A stretch of 64,000 bases of DNA from Hexactinellida sp. DTS-2022 (lineage: Eukaryota; Porifera; Hexactinellida): NCBI GenBank assembly GCA_028753945.1, contig JAPNXP010000001.1:5198501-5262500 (forward strand), given 5' to 3'. Position 1 is the first letter of the stretch, and every line of letters starts with the position of its first letter. This document shows positions 473 through 33,327 of the stretch, piece by piece. The notes under the pieces are model-generated. The model was not told where the DNA came from, made no database searches, and saw nothing but the letters and a program-made list of their open reading frames with translations. Position numbers and translations under genes: made by a program.

Positions 473-3346
473 TCAATAGTACCCACTCTTCAGTTTCGAT
501 TTGTTCTTGGCCACAACAGTCCATTCAGAATCCGACTCCTCGCCCGTCCCCGTCGGATTCTTCTGTTTTACTTCATTAGTGCTGGACACAGCAGATTGCT
601 GTGTTAGGGAGTCTCGGCGTTTCTGAGTAGACTCGTGTGTCCCTCCCTCCCTCCATTTGTCCCCCCTCCCCTCCTCCCTGCGGTCCCACCTCTTGTCCTC
701 TCTGCGGGGCTCCCTGTCCCTCCGGTTACCCGGCCGGTCATCTCTCCGAGTGTATATCCCCTTCTTGTCGTCTCTCCGGTATTCCCGCGTGTCCTCCCTG
801 CGGTTATTCTTTCGGGTGTAGTTCTCTCTCCTCTCGGTCCGGCGCTCTCTCTTGTCGCAGTCCCGGTTGCCCTGCTGCTGGGGCGTCCTGTGCCTCTCCT
901 CCCGTCTGAACACCCGCTCGTCCGTAGAACCGGTATCGCTGTTGTACTTCTGATGGAGCTCGTCCGGTCTGTGGTTACGGCCCTCCTGGGGAACCCTCAG
1001 GTCGGACCTGCTCCCCACCCCAGTCCCGTTCTGGGTGTCCTCTCCGTTGATCCCCTCATAGGGCGCGCGCTCTTCTACGCTGTCCACCCGACTGGAAGTG
1101 TCTGAGGGGTTGGGGTCATACTGGTAGGATCCTTGGTTCGGCTTGTTCCTCCTGTCCGGCAGGGAGGTCCGCTTGCTCGCGCTATTGTTGTGGCGGTAGG
1201 GAGACGGGCCTCTGTAGGGCTGCGTGGGCGAGTAGGAGTAGCGACTGTGCGGTCCTGATGTCCGGGAGCTGAAGCTGATGTTGGCAGAGTTAGAGGGCGA
1301 GGAGGCCATACTGCTGGACCCGTGGGAGAGGCGCGGCGACACGTGGGACATGCTGGACTGGGACCGGGGGTTGGAGCTGGGATGCAGATTAGAGCTGCTG
1401 TAGGAGGGGACCGGCCCGCCTCTGACGATCCGCTTGGGAGAGTTCTGGCTTGAGATCATACGGGCCAGACTCCCGGGATTCTTGTTAGCCCAGCACCCGA
1501 TCAGCTCCAGGCCCTTGTACTCAGAGATGTTCGCGCAGGAAGAGTGGGTACGAGATATGTCGCTGGGAGAGTACTCGAACTGACTTTGTGACGTCACGAT
1601 GGGAGGGGCGGATATGTCAAGTCCGGACAGAGAGTTCTGTGGAGTCATGCGTGTCATGCTGGTGGTCTTAATCTTGAGGCTAACCTTAAGCTCGGTCGTG
1701 TCGTCTCCGCGGTCAGGTGTGAATAGGTGGTTGATCTCCACCGGCGTCACAACGATGAGGTCATCAAAGCAGACCTTACACTCTGCCATGCCCAGCTTCT
1801 CTGATGCGATCCAGTTGTTCATGATGAAGGGAGGTCTGCTTAGGGAGATGTTCCAGTTCTTGTCGCACAGCACAAACTCCACTCTCTGTACAGTAGGGAT
1901 AGCGCTCTCGTCTCCGTCCAACTCCATGTACAGCTTCCACTTGGTCTCCTTGGGAATGTCCGGGTTGGGTCTGCAAATGCTCCCGAATATGAGAATTAGC
2001 TCTACCGTCTTAAGAGACTGGTTCTGCACTGTCTGAGGTGTGAACTCCTGGAGGGTGGCGGCTAGCGGTGGGAAGTTCATCATGTTCTGGTTGGAGACTC
2101 GGAGCTCCTTTATGGAGTCCAGCAGGTCTATTCGAACCCCCAGGGCTGTTATATTCATCTTTGTCAGCTCCTCTTCCCCCAGGAGCATCAGCGCCCGCCC
2201 GTCAATGCTCTCGGAGTAGAACCGGTTAGCCAGCTCCATGAACTGATCCTCCACCTCGTCCCCGTGCCCCTTGCGGAGCTCCCGCACCCACTCGTACACC
2301 CGTCTTGGGGTCCACTTGTCCAGGGATTCGTATGAGCTGCGGGAGTGGTGTCGCTGCTCCTTCTGGAAGAGTTTCTTCTCCTTGATGGTCAGCTGTCTCT
2401 CCCAGATCTGCAGCTGCTTCTCCTTGTCCGTAAGCTCGTTGCTCTGCTTCATAAGCTTGTCGTTCTTGTCACCGATGTCCCCGCGCCACTTGTCCGGGTT
2501 GTCCAGGAAGACAGCTGTCTTCTCCTGCAGGTCTCGGTCCAGCCGCAGGTTGTCCAGGTTCTTGACTAAGAACTGGAAGTTGGGCCGCTGCTTGTGGTCT
2601 TCCTTCCAGCAGGACTGAATTAAAGTCTTAAATTTGTGAGGAACCTCCGCGGGGAGGTGTGGCCTCTCTCCCTTCATGGCCACAAGCCAAGCCACCTGCA
2701 GGTTCTCCAGGGTGTCGTACGGGACCTTACACGTCAGGAGCTCCCAGAATACAATCGCGAATGAGTAGGTATCAGACGCCTCTATAACCAGGGACTCCTT
2801 TATAACCTCCGGAGCCATCCAGGCCATAGTACCTGCTATAGTGCTGGCTTCCCGCAGAGAGTTCTGTTGGAATTTGGAAGAACCAAAGTCGCACAGTTTG
2901 CAAACAAACTTGCTGTTTATGACGACATTCTTCGACTTGAGGTCTCTGTGTATGACGGTCTGTGGCGCCTGGAAGTGCAGGTACTCCATGCCGCGGGATA
3001 TGTCTAGTGCCCACAGTATAACTCGCTCGTAATCGAGCGTCTCGTTAGACTTGTTCTTCTTCCGCAGGAAGTCGTATAGAGACCCGTTCTCCGCCAGCTC
3101 TGTAACGATCCCGTACCCATTGTTATCACGGACTAGTCCGAAGAACTGTATAATGTTCTTGTGTCTGAGAGAGGTGAGGACCTGTATCTCGCGGTTCTCA
3201 GGGTTGAGGGTCGGCAAACGCTTGATAGCAACTTCCTTATCCTTGGTCTTCCAGCGTGCGCGGACTACAGTACCAAATGTGCCAACACCAATCGGACCAA
3301 TGTACTCGAAATCATCCTGTACAAGCTGCTGAATGAGTGCGGTCAT
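473..3346 (-). CDS. MAP3K20: MAP3K20/ZAK-type mixed-lineage kinase (kinase, coiled coil, SAM)
   Basis: A 957-residue protein in one uninterrupted exon. The kinase domain (about 14-270) has a glycine loop at 17-25, K42 in VAIK, HRD at D135, DFG at D153 and APE near 178-180. A charged coiled coil (~290-332) and a SAM domain (~343-416) follow. Next comes the ZAK-specific block (~445-550), recognisable from FGSICRP and WKLYMELDGDE, which parallel FGFHLKPG and WKMYMEMDGDE of human ZAK alpha. The long tail is Ser/Pro-rich, then Arg/Asp/Glu-rich (~815-905), and ends in SEWTVVAKNKSK, like the WTKVEYRKK-type end of ZAK alpha. Known family role: MAP3K for p38/JNK that senses stalled or collided ribosomes; in mammals the C-terminal tail contacts ribosomes. 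Domain order and both ends agree with ZAK alpha rather than MLK1-4, which have SH3 and leucine zipper regions. The first ATG precedes the kinase by about 12 residues, as in the family. Confidence 0.93.
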   Translation of the reverse strand: MTALIQQLVQDDFEYIGPIGVGTFGTVVRARWKTKDKEVAIKRLPTLNPENREIQVLTSLRHKNIIQFFGLVRDNNGYGIVTELAENGSLYDFLRKKNKSNETLDYERVILWALDISRGMEYLHFQAPQTVIHRDLKSKNVVINSKFVCKLCDFGSSKFQQNSLREASTIAGTMAWMAPEVIKESLVIEASDTYSFAIVFWELLTCKVPYDTLENLQVAWLVAMKGERPHLPAEVPHKFKTLIQSCWKEDHKQRPNFQFLVKNLDNLRLDRDLQEKTAVFLDNPDKWRGDIGDKNDKLMKQSNELTDKEKQLQIWERQLTIKEKKLFQKEQRHHSRSSYESLDKWTPRRVYEWVRELRKGHGDEVEDQFMELANRFYSESIDGRALMLLGEEELTKMNITALGVRIDLLDSIKELRVSNQNMMNFPPLAATLQEFTPQTVQNQSLKTVELILIFGSICRPNPDIPKETKWKLYMELDGDESAIPTVQRVEFVLCDKNWNISLSRPPFIMNNWIASEKLGMAECKVCFDDLIVVTPVEINHLFTPDRGDDTTELKVSLKIKTTSMTRMTPQNSLSGLDISAPPIVTSQSQFEYSPSDISRTHSSCANISEYKGLELIGCWANKNPGSLARMISSQNSPKRIVRGGPVPSYSSSNLHPSSNPRSQSSMSHVSPRLSHGSSSMASSPSNSANISFSSRTSGPHSRYSYSPTQPYRGPSPYRHNNSASKRTSLPDRRNKPNQGSYQYDPNPSDTSSRVDSVEERAPYEGINGEDTQNGTGVGSRSDLRVPQEGRNHRPDELHQKYNSDTGSTDERVFRREERHRTPQQQGNRDCDKRERRTERRENYTRKNNRREDTREYRRDDKKGIYTRRDDRPGNRRDREPRREDKRWDRREEGRGDKWREGGTHESTQKRRDSLTQQSAVSSTNEVKQKNPTGTGEESDSEWTVVAKNKSKLKSGYY

Positions 3347-5237: not shown

Positions 5238-5850
5238 TAATTCCATATTTTACCGACATATCTCAAAAGCTCCTTTTATTTGAGTTTGTATTATGCCTAG
5301 TTCGCTTATTATGAACTCTCATATTATGAACACCTTTATCATGAACACAATAATTAGTACATAGTATTAGTATGAACAAAAGTTCGTCTATAATGAACTT
5401 TTCTCTACAAACATAAAAATGAAAGCTTGTGTATTGTAAGTAAAAGTCAACATAAAGTTTCTCTAATATGAAATCAGAAATCTTATTGAGTATTCGGAAA
5501 TTCTTGTATTATTAATGAGAACAAGGTTACGGACCGCAGCGTATTTTAATTAATAATAATCGACCTGATTGTTCATATTTCAAATAATTAAAAGTTTGCA
5601 AAAGTTTCTATACACACCATTTATTTTTATTTGAAAACGAAATAAGTAACCAAGTTCACAAAATAATAACTCGAAAATAAAGCGCAACTCAAACAATCAT
5701 TACTCAAATTTACAAATACATTTATATATTATACATAATAAGGTGCAATAAAATAAAAATATACAAACAGCATACACAACAATTAAAAGCATTCTTTATG
5801 CTAAAATGATTTAACTTAAAAGAACACATTCCAATGGGTAGTAGAAGTTG
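5238..5850. other. 3' flank of the PX-SH3-SH2 gene, degenerate MITE
   Basis: Positions ~5,290-5,410 carry repeated TTATGAAC motifs like those in the MITE at 53,331-53,524, so this is probably a decayed relative. The remainder to 5,850 is AT-rich 3' flank. Confidence 0.4.
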
Positions 5851-8349
5851 TTAGGGGTTCTTATTAAGTGGGCGAGATAGGAATACATCAATTAACTTGT
5901 CTCCATGTTCTTTGTAAGACGCGATTGGTGTCTTCTGGAAATGAACTATTATTTCGCTGAGGGTTCGTACGCGAAAGTTTTCACCAATACAATACCAGTT
6001 GTCTTCCTGCTTAATATTGAAATGATGGACCCGGTAATGGTAGCGCATGGAGAGCACGAGCTCCCCCTCCCGATTTGTACTCTCTCGAAAAATGAACTCG
6101 CCCTGCTTAGCGCGCTGTAGCAGCAGGTCCTCACAGAACTTGCGTGTCATTTTCCCCCACAGGAACTGCACCGTGTCTTCTTTAGCCTTAGCGCCCTCCC
6201 GTGGGGCCGGCTGTGAGGGCGTGGCTAGAACCGTCATGGGAGATTTGGTCCGATAGGGGACCTCTGGCTGCTCGACAAATGGCTTCAGAGAGACGGGCTG
6301 AGGGGGGGCAGAGCCGTTCGATGGGGCAGCCTTTGACATGTTCCTTGCGGGGGGGACAGGGAGAAGCTTGTTCTCATGGGTACTCAGTCTCCGCAGAGCG
6401 GGAGAGGGGGCCTCTGTTGGGGTAACCGCTTTAGTGAGACGCGTTGGCTTAATGCTAGGGGGCGGGGCCTTCCCGGGTTTCTTGAGCGCGATAGGCTTCC
6501 AGTACTCAGACGGGGACCAGCCCTCCTCTCCGTTAACTCTCACAAAAGACCAAACAGCGTCCTCGCTCCGCTCTATGAGAGTGGCGTTGTCGCCGGCCGT
6601 GAATGATACACAGGCCTCGTTCTGAGCAGTGTACTGCTCTATCGCTACAAACATTTTAGGGAGAGTCTTCTGGGGCAGCGAGGAGGAGACTCGGAGACTC
6701 AGGTGCTGTCGGGTTTTGAGGGGAAACGGGGAATCTGCAGTGTTTTCGTTGACTTCATCAACGTTGATGGGGTCAATTGATGGCATCCAGTTGATATAGT
6801 CTATTTCTTCATCATCTTTGGAAGCACTACATTTGTTGTTATTCATTAACAAAGAGCGGTCACTCGAGTCGAACGGCCGACTGAGAATATTGGTGTGGCT
6901 CGCCCGCTCATAATTCTGATAAATCGAATTGTCGACGACGAAAGAAGGCGTGCTCGGAGACCTCTGCAGCAGGCTACTAACTTCTTGTGGGTTAACGTAC
7001 TTCCTAGGGGGCTTTGGGGGTTTGACATGTTTGGTTGGAAGTTGTGAATTCTGCAAGGACTGAGTGAGCTGCAATCCTTTAACCAATTCGTCGGAGAGTT
7101 CGTAGTTAATGGAAATGTCAGGATTTTCCTCTATATTTATGTCTAGCATCTTGTGGATAATTTCCTCCACCTCTGCGTTAACTTTCGTGTTCTTCTTTTC
7201 GTTCTTAGACTTGTTAATAAGCGCGTACTTAACACTGCTCTTCTTCGTGAAGTCCTGCGGTACCTCCTCTAGCACTGAGTACATAGACACTATGTCATGG
7301 CGCCTGAACGTCCCTCTCCGGGGAGGGGGATTGAAGTTGTTGGAGGGAGTAACGTAGAGTTCCTTCTTGGTGCTACGCTCCAGGGTCTCCTTCCTCTGCT
7401 GGTGCTCGCTCTCTGTCAGGTACAGGGAGGGGACTATCCCAGTCTCGCTCCCGCATTTCACGCGCCACCAACCGTCGTAGGACTTGAATACAACCTGAAC
7501 TGTCTGGCCTTTCTTCAGAGATAGCTCGTCGGAGTTGTTGGTTGTGAAGTCGGCATTGACTATGTACTGCTTGCAAGAGAAATTCTCAACCTTCTCGTTG
7601 TCATGGGAACCGTCTAGCGGCTGGAGAATGGAGGCCGGGAGGTAGCCCTGTTCGTTCTCTGCCACACACAGCCACCAGCCACTCAGACGCCTCTCCAGCA
7701 CCTGCAGCTTCGTGCCAGCAGTCACGGAGATCTGGTGCATGTTAGTCGGGTCGTAGTCCGCTATCGCTATAAACTCAGTGCACTCCAACTCCAGGTCGTC
7801 TTCCCCAGGCTGGGCGGAGTCTGAGCTGGGGGCGACGGCCGTGTCGTCTGGCCAGAGACTGAAGAACCGGGTGAATATGTCCGAGCGGATGAGCTCCTCC
7901 GGGAGCTTCATTATACTCTCGCAGAATTCCTCCAGGCGTTCCTTCCGCTTTTGCGCCACCTGTTTAACATTGCTACGCCCTATAAATGCCCTGCAAGGGA
8001 GGGAGGGGATTACGGTGTTTGTCACTTGAATACTGCTTCCCAGGCCGACTAGCAGCGACTGCTGTGCGCACAGTTGCACCTGAAACTCGAAAAAGTTAGA
8101 ATAACGACGAAATATATGGAGGTTGGCGCCAGAGGACCAAGCTACAACCAATTCGTAAATGTAATGTTTGTTGGGCTCACGTCGCTTGTGTATCTGCTTC
8201 ACCTCCAGAGATAGAATGTTCCCATCTGGTTGCGACAAATTGCTACGAACGGTGGAAGGGGGGGGAAGTGGCTTTTTCAATAGAGCGTTGGTTGCAACAC
8301 ACATTCTCTCGTAGACTAATTTCAATTCTTTTTTCTTACAACAAGACAT
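5851..8349 (-). CDS. TKS/p47phox-like PX-SH3-SH3-SH3 scaffold with C-terminal NCK-like SH2
   Basis: 832 residues, single exon. A PX domain (~45-168) with the phosphoinositide-binding RRY at 81-83 and the TKS-like stretch KRREPNKHYIYEL. SH3-1 ~191-246 (IADY, GWW), SH3-2 ~260-314 (DGWW, VPSLY) and SH3-3 ~565-620 follow. Class II SH3-ligand-like PPKPPRK lies at ~444-450. The C-terminal SH2 (~728-826) has the phosphotyrosine-binding arginine R755 in FIFRES and NCK-like features YCIG and TPIA. PX-SH3-SH3 order and sequence match p47phox/TKS organisers of NADPH oxidase and invadopodia; the SH2 most resembles NCK adaptors. Vertebrate TKS proteins have no SH2; known biology is that phosphorylated TKS5 recruits NCK. 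SH3-3 has VW where most SH3 domains have WW. Three pYxN-type sites (Y451 VNP, Y477 QNY, Y518 INW) resemble GRB2 docking motifs. The reading frame is continuous through all domains, so a chimaeric gene model is unlikely. Confidence 0.9.
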   Translation of the reverse strand: MSCCKKKELKLVYERMCVATNALLKKPLPPPSTVRSNLSQPDGNILSLEVKQIHKRREPNKHYIYELVVAWSSGANLHIFRRYSNFFEFQVQLCAQQSLLVGLGSSIQVTNTVIPSLPCRAFIGRSNVKQVAQKRKERLEEFCESIMKLPEELIRSDIFTRFFSLWPDDTAVAPSSDSAQPGEDDLELECTEFIAIADYDPTNMHQISVTAGTKLQVLERRLSGWWLCVAENEQGYLPASILQPLDGSHDNEKVENFSCKQYIVNADFTTNNSDELSLKKGQTVQVVFKSYDGWWRVKCGSETGIVPSLYLTESEHQQRKETLERSTKKELYVTPSNNFNPPPRRGTFRRHDIVSMYSVLEEVPQDFTKKSSVKYALINKSKNEKKNTKVNAEVEEIIHKMLDINIEENPDISINYELSDELVKGLQLTQSLQNSQLPTKHVKPPKPPRKYVNPQEVSSLLQRSPSTPSFVVDNSIYQNYERASHTNILSRPFDSSDRSLLMNNNKCSASKDDEEIDYINWMPSIDPINVDEVNENTADSPFPLKTRQHLSLRVSSSLPQKTLPKMFVAIEQYTAQNEACVSFTAGDNATLIERSEDAVWSFVRVNGEEGWSPSEYWKPIALKKPGKAPPPSIKPTRLTKAVTPTEAPSPALRRLSTHENKLLPVPPARNMSKAAPSNGSAPPQPVSLKPFVEQPEVPYRTKSPMTVLATPSQPAPREGAKAKEDTVQFLWGKMTRKFCEDLLLQRAKQGEFIFRESTNREGELVLSMRYHYRVHHFNIKQEDNWYCIGENFRVRTLSEIIVHFQKTPIASYKEHGDKLIDVFLSRPLNKNP

Positions 8350-28134: not shown

Positions 28135-28238
28135 AGAGGATGGGTGGGTGCAGGAGTATTGTTAAGATGTCAGTGAGATGGTCTTTTAGGAGTGCCAAGT
28201 TTGTTGAATTGAGCTCATATATTTCACACAGTTAGAAA

Positions 28239-30728
28239 ATGTACCAGAGAGAAGGAGAGAAAAAACCGCTGGAAGTAGGGGGATCCACATCCTGCCCATG
28301 CCCCCTACCCCTCAGGGGACCTCCACATGGGACATGTGCGTGTGTACACTATCAGTGATACACTGGCACGATACCACAGGGCCAGAGGTGAGAGCGTGCT
28401 ACACCCCATGGGCTGGGATGCGTTCGGCCTGCCAGCAGAGAACGCAGCTATCGAGAGAGGCTTGAGCCCAGTGGACTGGACACAGACCAATATAGGCCAG
28501 ATGCGACGGCAGCTGGATCAGCTGAACTTCCAGTTTGACTGGGAGAGGCAAGTGACCACGTGTACTCCGGAGTACTACCGATGGACCCAGTGGTTGTTCA
28601 CACAGCTGTACCGACACGATCTCGCCTACCAGAGGGAGGCCTACGTCAACTGGGACCCCGTAGACGGGACGGTACTGGCTAATGAACAGGTGGATGCTGA
28701 GGGCAGATCGTGGCGCTCTGGCTCGAGGGTAGAGCGGAGGAAACTGAGGCAGTGGTTCTTGCGTCTGACTCACTACAGAGATGCCCTGCTGAAGGGACTG
28801 GCTGAGCTCGACTGGCCCGAGAAGGTGAAGCAGATGCAGACACACTGGATTGGGCGATCTGACGGGTATCTGATCAGTTTCCAGCTGCAGGGAGGCGACA
28901 GCCAGGCAAAGGAGCAACTGCACGTGTTCACCACCACTCCGGAGAAGCTCCTGGATGCTAGCTTTCTTGCTGTGTCCCGGGAGCACGAGTTGACTGAGAG
29001 GTACTCACGCGGTGCCTACCTCACGCACACATCCAGCAGCGAGAGCGGTTGCGTGGAAGGCGGACATAGTGAAGTGGTCAGGGGGGAGTTGCTACCCGTT
29101 CGAGCTGTCCATCCCATCAGTGGGGAGCTACTGCCTGTACTCAAGCTGGACCACGTGGTGCAGGAGTATGGCACAGGCGCAGTGATGGGTGTGCCGACTC
29201 ACAACAAGAGGGATGCTCGCGTGGCAGAGAAGTGGGGCTGTGTTGTACCGCAGCAGGCTATCTCTCCGGACGGGCGCACTGTAGAGTCAGGTTGCATGCG
29301 CGGAATGAGTGCTGAGGAGGCACGAGGGGCCATGCTATCACAGGACTGGATGCAAGTCAGCGAGCATTTTCGCCTGCGCGACTGGCTTATCTCGCGACAG
29401 CGCTACTGGGGCTGTCCCATCCCGATGGTGCACTGTCCCGCGTGTGGAACTATCCCTGTCCGTGAGACGGAGTTGCCGGTTCTCCTGCCGACTAACCTAC
29501 ACTTGACAGGCAGAGGGACCTCTCCTCTGAGCACGTGTGCGGAGTTCCTCTCGACTGTCTGCCCCCAGTGCGGTAGCCTACACGCACAGCGGGAAACAGA
29601 CACCATGGACACGTTCATCGACTCATCCTGGTATTATATGCGCTACTGCGATCCTCACAACACGTCGGCACTCTGCCGTGCAGAGGCAGCACGCCGGTGG
29701 CTACCGGTAGACCTGTACATCGGTGGGGTTGAGCATGCGGTGCTGCACTTGTTGTATGCACGCTTCATTAGCCACTTCCTCTACGACCTTGGACTGTCGC
29801 CGCAGCGAGAGCCCTTCACCAAGCTGATAACCCAGGGCATGGTGACCGGCAGGACGTACCGGCTACTCGGCTCTCAGCGCTACATCCGGGCAGATCAGGT
29901 GGAGGCAGGACCCTCTGGGGGGCTGGTGGAGCGGGGCACACAGAAGGGGGTGGAGGTGTTCTGGGAGAAAATGTCCAAGTCCAAGCACAACGGTGTTAAC
30001 CCGCAGGCTATGGTGGAGAAGTACGGAGCAGATGTGGTGAGGCTATTCCTTCTCTTCAAGTCGCCGCCACACAGGGACCTACAGTGGGACGAGACAGGGA
30101 TCGTAGGTATTGTACGCTGGAAGGCTAGCCTTGAGCAGGTACTCTGCCTACACACTAACCTCTACCACAGCAGTGCAGAGGTGGCTGCTTTTAACGAGGA
30201 GGTACACGCCTCTCTGGCTAGCCTCACCCAGAGAGCAGTACACTTCTCAACACAAGCGATGGAGCACAAGTTCAACTTCAACATGCTAATCTCCAATCTT
30301 ATGATGCTAACCAACTATATGCTCAAGCACAAGCATATGCTCTGCGGGACACAGGCATGCCACGAGAGCCTGAGGGTACTGCTAGCCCTCCTGCACCCCA
30401 TGGCACCCAGCATTTCCGCTGAGCTGTGGGAGCAGCTAGAGGAGGGTGCACAGACGCCCACCATCAGTATGGTATGCCGCGCAATCAGGGAGGACTGTGA
30501 GAAGCAGCAACACCAGGTCAAGGGGCAGACTACCACGTTATCTGTCCTGCTGGACAACAGGTGGGTCTGCTCTGTGCATGTACCCATGAGCGGGGGCACA
30601 TCGGAAGAATAAATACGCCAGGTAGCACTAACCAACCCTCAGATACAACGGTACCTAAAGAATCAGCAGCCCCCCAGGGCGGTACTAAAGTAAATCAAGA
30701 GACAATTGTTATAATCACAAAGAATTAA
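28239..30728 (+). pseudogene. Second LARS2 copy with converted core and broken ends
   Basis: An open frame of 761 codons (28,327-30,612) encodes HMGH and KMSKS intact. Upstream the homologue of the family's SMFPYPSG has lost one base (atg-ttt-ccc became atg-ccccc), shifting the frame out of the N-terminal segment. Downstream a TAC-to-TAA change after TSEE stops translation about 50 residues early; beyond it homology continues to a stop at 30,726-30,728 with many substitutions. Without the first strand of the Rossmann fold before HMGH and without a targeting sequence it is unlikely to make an active enzyme. Its core remains open because it matches the functional copy, which I attribute to gene conversion. 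Confidence 0.8.
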
Positions 30729-30777
30729 AGTAGACAACATAGTGAGGTAGTGTGAGTACCTCAAAAAGTTGCTACAA

Positions 30778-33327
30778 TTAATCCTTTGTAAATATTTCAA
30801 CTGTCTTTCGATTTAACTTTAATACCACCTTGTGAGACTGTCGATCCTTCAGAAACCGCTGCACCTCAGGATTGGCTAATACTACCTGACGTACGTATTC
30901 TTCCGATGTGCCCCCGCTCATGGGTACATGCACAGAGCAGACCCACCTGTTGTCCAGCAGGACAGATAACGTGGTAGTCTGCCCCTTGACCTGGTGTTGC
31001 TGCTTCTCACAGTCCTCCCTGATTGCGCGGCATACCATACTGATGGTGGGCGTCTGTGCACCCTCCTCTAGCTGCTCCCACAGCTCAGCGGAAATGCTGG
31101 GTGCCATGGGGTGCAGGAGGGCTAGCAGTACCCTCAGGCTCTCGTGGCATGCCTGTGTCCCGCAGAGCATATGCTTGTGCTTGAGCATATAGTTGGTTAG
31201 CATCATAAGATTGGAGATTAGCATGTTGAAGTTGAACTTGTGCTCCATCGCTTGTGTTGAGAAGTGTACTGCTCTCTGGGTGAGGCTAGCCAGAGAGGCG
31301 TGTACCTCCTCGTTAAAAGCAGCCACCTCTGCACTGCTGTGGTAGAGGTTAGTGTGTAGGCAGAGTACCTGCTCAAGGCTAGCCTTCCAGCGTACAATAC
31401 CTACGATCCCTGTCTCGTCCCACTGTAGGTCCCTGTGTGGCGGCGACTTGAAGAGAAGGAATAGCCTCACCACATCTGCTCCGTACTTCTCCACCATAGC
31501 CTGCGGGTTAACACCGTTGTGCTTGGACTTGGACATTTTCTCCCAGAACACCTCCACCCCCTTCTGTGTGCCCCGCTCCACCAGCCCCCCAGAGGGTCCT
31601 GCCTCCACCTGATCTGCCCGGATGTAGCGCTGAGAGCCGAGTAGCCGGTACGTCCTGCCGGTCACCATGCCCTGGGTTATCAGCTTGGTGAAGGGCTCTC
31701 GCTGCGGCGACAGTCCAAGGTCGTAGAGGAAGTGGCTAATGAAGCGTGCATACAACAAGTGCAGCACCGCATGCTCAACCCCACCGATGTACAGGTCTAC
31801 CGGTAGCCACCGGCGTGCTGCCTCTGCACGGCAGAGTGCCGACGTGTTGTGAGGATCGCAGTAGCGCATATAATACCAGGATGAGTCGATGAACGTGTCC
31901 ATGGTGTCTGTTTCCCGCTGTGCGTGTAGGCTACCGCACTGGGGGCAGACAGTCGAGAGGAACTCCGCACACGTGCTCAGAGGAGAGGTCCCTCTGCCTG
32001 TCAAGTGTAGGTTAGTCGGCAGGAGAACCGGCAACTCCGTCTCACGGACAGGGATAGTTCCACACGCGGGACAGTGCACCATCGGGATGGGACAGCCCCA
32101 GTAGCGCTGTCGCGAGATAAGCCAGTCGCGCAGGCGAAAATGCTCGCTGACTTGCATCCAGTCCTGTGATAGCATGGCCCCTCGTGCCTCCTCAGCACTC
32201 ATTCCGCGCATGCAACCTGACTCTACAGTGCGCCCGTCCGGAGAGATAGCCTGCTGCGGTACAACACAGCCCCACTTCTCTGCCACGCGAGCATCCCTCT
32301 TGTTGTGAGTCGGCACACCCATCACTGCGCCTGTGCCATACTCCTGCACCACGTGGTCCAGCTTGAGTACAGGCAGTAGCTCCCCACTGATGGGATGGAC
32401 AGCTCGAACGGGTAGCAACTCCCCCCTGACCACTTCACTATGTCCGCCTTCCACGCAACCGCTCTCGCTGCTGGATGTGTGCGTGAGGTAGGCACCGCGT
32501 GAGTACCTCTCAGTCAACTCGTGCTCCCGGGACACAGCAAGAAAGCTAGCATCCAGGAGCTTCTCCGGAGTGGTGGTGAACACGTGCAGTTGCTCCTTTG
32601 CCTGGCTGTCGCCTCCCTGCAGCTGGAAACTGATCAGATACCCGTCAGATCGCCCAATCCAGTGTGTCTGCATCTGCTTCACCTTCTCGGGCCAGTCGAG
32701 CTCAGCCAGTCCCTTCAGCAGGGCATCTCTGTAGTGAGTCAGACGCAAGAACCACTGCCTCAGTTTCCTCCGCTCTACCCTCGAGCCAGAGCGCCACGAT
32801 CTGCCCTCAGCATCCACCTGTTCATTAGCCAGTACCGTCCCGTCTACGGGGTCCCAGTTGACGTAGGCCTCCCTCTGGTAGGCGAGATCGTGTCGGTACA
32901 GCTGTGTGAACAACCACTGGGTCCATCGGTAGTACTCCGGAGTACACGTGGTCACTTGCCTCTCCCAGTCAAACTGGAAGTTCAGCTGATCCAGCTGCCG
33001 TCGCATCTGGCCTATATTGGTCTGTGTCCAGTCCACTGGGCTCAAGCCTCTCTCGATAGCTGCGTTCTCTGCTGGCAGGCCGAAGGCATCCCAGCCCATG
33101 GGGTGTAGCACACTCTCACCTCTGGCCCTGTGGTATCGTGCCAGTGTATCACTGATAGTGTACACACGCACATGTCCCATGTGGAGGTCCCCTGAGGGGT
33201 AGGGAAACATGGACAGAACGTAGACCCCCCCAGCCCCAGCGGTTTCTCCCCCCTTCTCGTTCTGGTACATTCTCAGGTTTGTGTGAAATACGGATGAGCT
33301 CAATTTATGGTTACTGTTTGTGGGCAC
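30778..33327 (-). CDS. LARS2: Mitochondrial leucyl-tRNA synthetase
   Basis: Class Ia synthetase that charges mitochondrial tRNA-Leu. From the codon at 33,327 it is 849 residues; that codon is GTG, and the first in-frame ATG is at 33,270 (MYQNEK). Motifs: [20 protein letters not shown] (HIGH box), [34 protein letters not shown], and KMSKSKHNG. The CP1 editing region between ~230 and 350 is short, as in mitochondrial LeuRS. The C-terminus ends like human LARS2. In-frame sequence upstream of 33,327 stays open to ~33,504 without an ATG and encodes an Arg-rich segment lacking acidic residues ([19 protein letters not shown]), plausibly a targeting peptide supplied through an unseen upstream exon or start. 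So the exact start is uncertain. It is the intact partner of the inverted copy to its left. Confidence 0.92.

Follow-up and report, generated by a model that had tools for sequence, protein, structure and literature searches.

A p47phox/TKS-family gene with an NCK-like SH2 domain at its C-terminus in a hexactinellid sponge

The window analysed here is a stretch of 64,000 nucleotides from Hexactinellida sp. DTS-2022 (GCA_028753945.1, contig JAPNXP010000001.1, positions 5,198,501 to 5,262,500 of the forward strand). On its reverse strand, from 8349 to 5851, a single uninterrupted frame of 832 codons runs from ATG to TAA and encodes 832 amino acids (aa), with the domains in the order PX-SH3-SH3-linker-SH3-linker-SH2. 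This PX-SH3-SH3-SH3-SH2 architecture in one frame is confirmed. With moderate confidence, the gene is read as an organiser of the p47phox/TKS family with a role in oxidase control, the only PX-SH3-SH3 gene found in the assembly (112,398,167 bases in 18 contigs searched), to which an NCK-type SH2 has been fused at the C-terminus.

Architecture of the 832-codon frame

A first-pass annotation of the window had described a continuous 832-codon frame with PX, three SH3 and a C-terminal SH2, and both Pfam and iterated search bear this description out. Pfam places PX (PF00787) at residues 71-164 (E 2.1e-12), SH3_1 in three stretches (E 3.6e-30) and SH2 at residues 731-804 (E 3.3e-15), and the iterated search finds the SH2, the three SH3 and the PX in the same frame and in the same order. 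The features, all on the reverse strand, are as follows.

5851..8349, reverse strand: single frame of 832 codons, PX-SH3-SH3-linker-SH3-linker-SH2
7840..8217, reverse strand: PX domain (Pfam and iterated search)
7630..7770, reverse strand: first SH3 of the p47phox-like pair (Pfam, iterated search and alignment to p47phox)
7417..7563, reverse strand: second SH3 of the p47phox-like pair (Pfam, iterated search and alignment to p47phox)
7294..7329, reverse strand: PPPRRGTFRRHD, residues 341-352 (phmmer alignment to p47phox GAPPRRSSIRN, 1ng2)
7003..7023, reverse strand: KPPKPPR, a proline-rich motif (PxxPx+) in the linker
6502..6648, reverse strand: third SH3 (iterated search and matches to solved structures)
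6343..6369, reverse strand: KLLPVPPAR, a proline-rich motif between the third SH3 and the SH2
5935..6159, reverse strand: NCK-like SH2, ending in the NCK-type tail PIASYKEHGDK
6085..6087, reverse strand: codon of R755, the phosphotyrosine-binding arginine position
5620..5631, reverse strand: two AATAAA signals 3' of the stop codon

The fusion could be an illusion of annotation, produced by two transcripts (one for PX-SH3 and one for SH2), by an in-frame intron or by an assembly join, and the approximately 114 codons of proline-rich linker between the third SH3 and the SH2 offer a place for such a seam. A frame-keeping intron is conceivable, although codons 601-735 contain only one donor-like GT[AG]AG. 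Against such an artefact, the linker before the SH2 (codons 616-728) has 0 stops in the coding frame, compared with 2-9 per frame in the remaining five, and its guanine-cytosine (GC) content by codon position remains coding-like throughout; in the 300-base flanks it drops to 0.17-0.28. Neither AATAAA nor ATTAAA occurs on the coding strand inside the open reading frame, and AATAAA is found at 5631 and 5625, approximately 220 nucleotides beyond the stop codon. Based on mononucleotide composition, the probability of the frame being open by chance is 8e-17 for its whole length and 2.5e-4 for codons 616-832. An artefactual fusion is thus considered very unlikely.

Kinship of the N-terminal half

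The closest solved relative of the N-terminal half (residues 53-314) is human p47phox (NCF1, 8wej; E 4.8e-39), with identity at 82 of the 256 aligned residues across the PX and the tandem SH3, and the earlier proposal of a TKS/p47phox-type N-terminus holds. When the PX alone was compared with solved structures, NCF1 came first, followed by PI3K-C2alpha and p40phox; no TKS PX is among the 14 matches of this search, so it provides no direct PX comparison with TKS. In the PX, the equivalents of p47phox R43 (R82) and R90 (R135) are kept, and those of K79, R70 and H51 are altered to A121, T112 and Q90, respectively. The first SH3 keeps W193 (W225) and P206 (P238), and the second keeps W263 (W294) and has I305 in the place of Y274. 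In NCF1, these residues have functional roles. Directly behind the SH3 pair lies a polybasic proline segment, PPPRRGTFRR, a candidate autoinhibitory segment by its alignment to GAPPRRSSIRN in the autoinhibitory region of p47phox. For the third SH3, p47phox chains are again the first solved structures, the myosin IB SH3 is next, and the SH3PXD2A SH3s stand lower (2ega, 2.8e-5; 2ekh, 1.5e-4), as does 2dnu (3.1e-6), which is titled 'SH3 multiple domains 1' and is presumably the same protein, SH3PXD2A.

With an N-terminal PX and a tandem SH3 directly following it, the protein is on its sequence a member of the p47phox/TKS organiser family, and it is neither p47phox nor TKS in the narrow sense. p47phox is approximately 390 residues long and has two SH3 and no further domain, whereas the 832-aa protein has a third SH3 and an SH2 and does not keep K79 and R70 of the PX. 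The layout of TKS4 and TKS5 (SH3PXD2B and SH3PXD2A), which consists of PX, an SH3 pair, a long linker and further SH3, is present in the window protein, and its third SH3 resembles the SH3PXD2A SH3s. However, TKS proteins have four or five SH3, only three are detected here, and the window protein ends in an SH2. No SH2 is shown in the TKS family figure legend of PMC7663256.

The SH2 domain and the origin of the fusion

Across 32 aligned SH2 domains, a subset chosen from the 62 SH2 matches in the genome, the only position that never varies is the phosphotyrosine-binding arginine R755, which the first-pass annotation had pointed out. Together with a model of the domain and its matches, this shows that the arginine and the SH2 fold expected of an NCK SH2 are both present. 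When the window SH2 is the query, human NCK2 and NCK1 come first, and its C-terminal half alone likewise matches NCK2 first and NCK1 second. The tail follows the PI...(E)HGxK pattern of NCK1 and NCK2, in which a C-terminal SH2 is also preceded by SH3s. In the reverse direction, with human NCK2 as the query, only one of the genome's own domains in the set ranks above the window SH2. These matches favour NCK over another family such as GRB2, an SHP2-like family or an orphan one, from which the SH2 might have come with the NCK link being a mere resemblance. On the side of such an origin, human NCK1 reaches the window SH2 only after the L012, GRB2, L002, L003, PLCG1 C and PTPN11 C rows, and a 62-row SH2 tree does not resolve the NCK placement; groupings to GRB2 and SHP2 are not rejected. 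That tree comprises 51 domains of this genome, the window included, and 11 human domains, and matches of <65 residues or E >1e-8 were dropped; from the nine short loci L046-L054, the tree includes just two. Because of this sampling of short domains, the lack of the tail motif in some SH2 rows may reflect truncation. A 27-row tree, whose rows are a hand-picked subset, joins the window SH2 to NCK with a support of 89/88. A source outside NCK is rather unlikely; the trees lean to NCK, and the earlier NCK-like label is likely on this evidence, even though not proven.

As an observation on other SH2 genes, locus L005 (859-7010) holds two near-identical two-SH2 stretches in tandem, approximately 5 kb apart, which group with the human SHP2 SH2s.

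In its whole layout the protein differs from NCK, which has SH3-SH3-SH3-SH2 and nothing else, since a PX is present and the SH3s are of p47phox type. Moreover, the genome encodes a separate gene of the NCK layout, L012, with SH3-SH3-SH3-SH2 in one frame of 374 aa. Its SH2 alone has human NCK1 as the first match, and the whole protein has GRB2 first, from summed domains; the name NCK is given because of the domain order and the SH2 match. There are also two GRB2-like SH3-SH2-SH3 genes (L002 and L007). The first-pass annotation had inferred that both partner activities are carried on one polypeptide. The PX-SH3-SH3-SH3-SH2 chain does exist, but the idea that it replaces both partners is not supported, because NCK is encoded separately in the same genome.

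The annotation had also left open whether the architecture was ancestral and later split or a derived fusion. PMC2121648 surveys p47phox-like genes across a choanoflagellate, a cnidarian, a mollusc and deuterostomes and, in the section concerned, gives them PX and SH3; the string SH2 is absent from its main text. Since NCK persists as its own gene and the p47phox-like genes of that survey are without SH2 as far as its main text goes, a derived fusion, in which a p47phox/TKS-family oxidase organiser gained an NCK-type SH2, fits better. An ancestral PX-SH3-SH2 gene of early animals, whose SH2 was lost by other lineages, is unlikely in the face of the same two points. In the open-access PMC literature, within the portions of articles drawn upon (including PMC2121648, PMC7663256, PMC10176882, PMC3143166 and PMC11521371), no PX-SH3-SH2 protein was met. 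A scan of viral contigs found no relatives, and a scan of bacterial and archaeal genome contigs gave five pattern matches, none of which was confirmed. As far as these searches show, the gene is a new domain combination in a known family and not a new kind of system.

Oxidase partners, possible functions and neighbouring genes

The genome contains 22 PX exons and 86 SH3 exons, and for three of the 22 PX an SH3 lies no more than 5 kb away. These are the window gene, a p40phox gene (L043, PX-SH3-PB1) and an SH3-then-PX gene on C4, which is SNX9-like by domain order only; no second PX-SH3-SH3 gene was found among them. The multi-SH3 genes L062, L063 and L064 were checked for a second TKS, and no PX was seen in the parts read; by eye, they are an SH3D19-like five-SH3 protein, a PDZ-like start with three SH3, and a two-SH3 fragment, respectively. 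p40phox (NCF4) is, like the window protein, a PX-SH3 protein and is an oxidase subunit, but it has PB1 and no SH2. Further oxidase genes include a NOX2-like frame of 583 aa identified by eye (L045), another NOX-type gene in exons on C3, and two p22phox genes (L041 and L044). The L041 tail reads PSEPAPR, a PSxPxPR motif, and the L044 tail is without it, so the two may differ in organiser binding. No p67phox was recognised in the genome, which does not by itself show its absence. With NOX2-like, p22phox and p40phox genes found, the genome has most components of a phagocyte-type oxidase.

In the proposed mechanism, the PX would anchor the scaffold on a phosphoinositide membrane, and in the resting state the PPPRRGTFRR segment behind the tandem SH3 pair would hold that pair, in the manner of p47phox. 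Phosphorylation would free the pair, which could then bind the proline-rich tail of p22phox and bring the complex to the NOX2-like oxidase. The SH2 may serve as a second address by binding phosphotyrosine, whether that of receptors, of adaptors or of its own scaffold, which would place oxidase assembly where tyrosine kinases are active, and the third SH3 and the proline motifs could recruit further partners. The strongest form of this proposal, in which the sole p47phox/TKS gene is a single-chain NADPH oxidase organiser addressed by tyrosine kinases, with oxidant bursts wired to receptor tyrosine kinases, is put forward only tentatively.

Its main rival is a podosome or adhesion scaffold of TKS type, whose built-in NCK-like arm would gather actin nucleators at phosphotyrosine-rich membrane, with oxidase control secondary. 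The TKS-like layout and the SH3PXD2A matches of the third SH3 are consistent with such a scaffold. Once phosphorylated by Src, moreover, vertebrate Tks5 associates with the separate adaptor Nck, according to the relevant parts of PMC3143166 and of the TKS review PMC7663256. On the other hand, NCF1 is closest over the PX and the SH3 pair, NCF1 and the myosin IB SH3 outrank the SH3PXD2A chains for the third SH3, and the oxidase partner genes are in the genome. This scaffold is possible but not the expected outcome, and the TKS/invadopodia setting with which the first-pass annotation had compared the gene is just one option. The two functions also overlap, because TKS is counted in the p47 organiser family in the part of PMC7663256 concerned. 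If the fusion of an organiser with an NCK-like domain is confirmed, the link between them would be either old or convergently useful. The oxidase-organiser reading would then offer a one-protein system for testing whether phosphotyrosine docking directs oxidase assembly, and would broaden what is known of how phagocyte-type oxidases are controlled in an early-branching animal.

The neighbouring gene at 473-3346, which adjoins the 832-codon gene, is a single frame of 957 aa with kinase and SAM domains and is ZAK-like by eye. Frames of 485, 510 and 849 aa in the window are conserved animal genes in a single frame, as are the GRB2- and NCK-like L002, L007 and L012; the occurrence of several such genes suggests intron loss or retroposition. 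At 28207-33305, two copies named by eye as mitochondrial leucyl-tRNA-synthetase-like are inverted with little or no spacer, and this palindrome, which aligns at 96% over 2803 columns, is either an inverted duplication of recent origin or the product of joined haplotypes. The GC content of the window is 38.9%. The genome also has at least 16 homeodomain exons, a small number that would fit a sponge, and seven of them were read by eye as Msx, NK2, BarH-like, POU (two), paired and LIM types.
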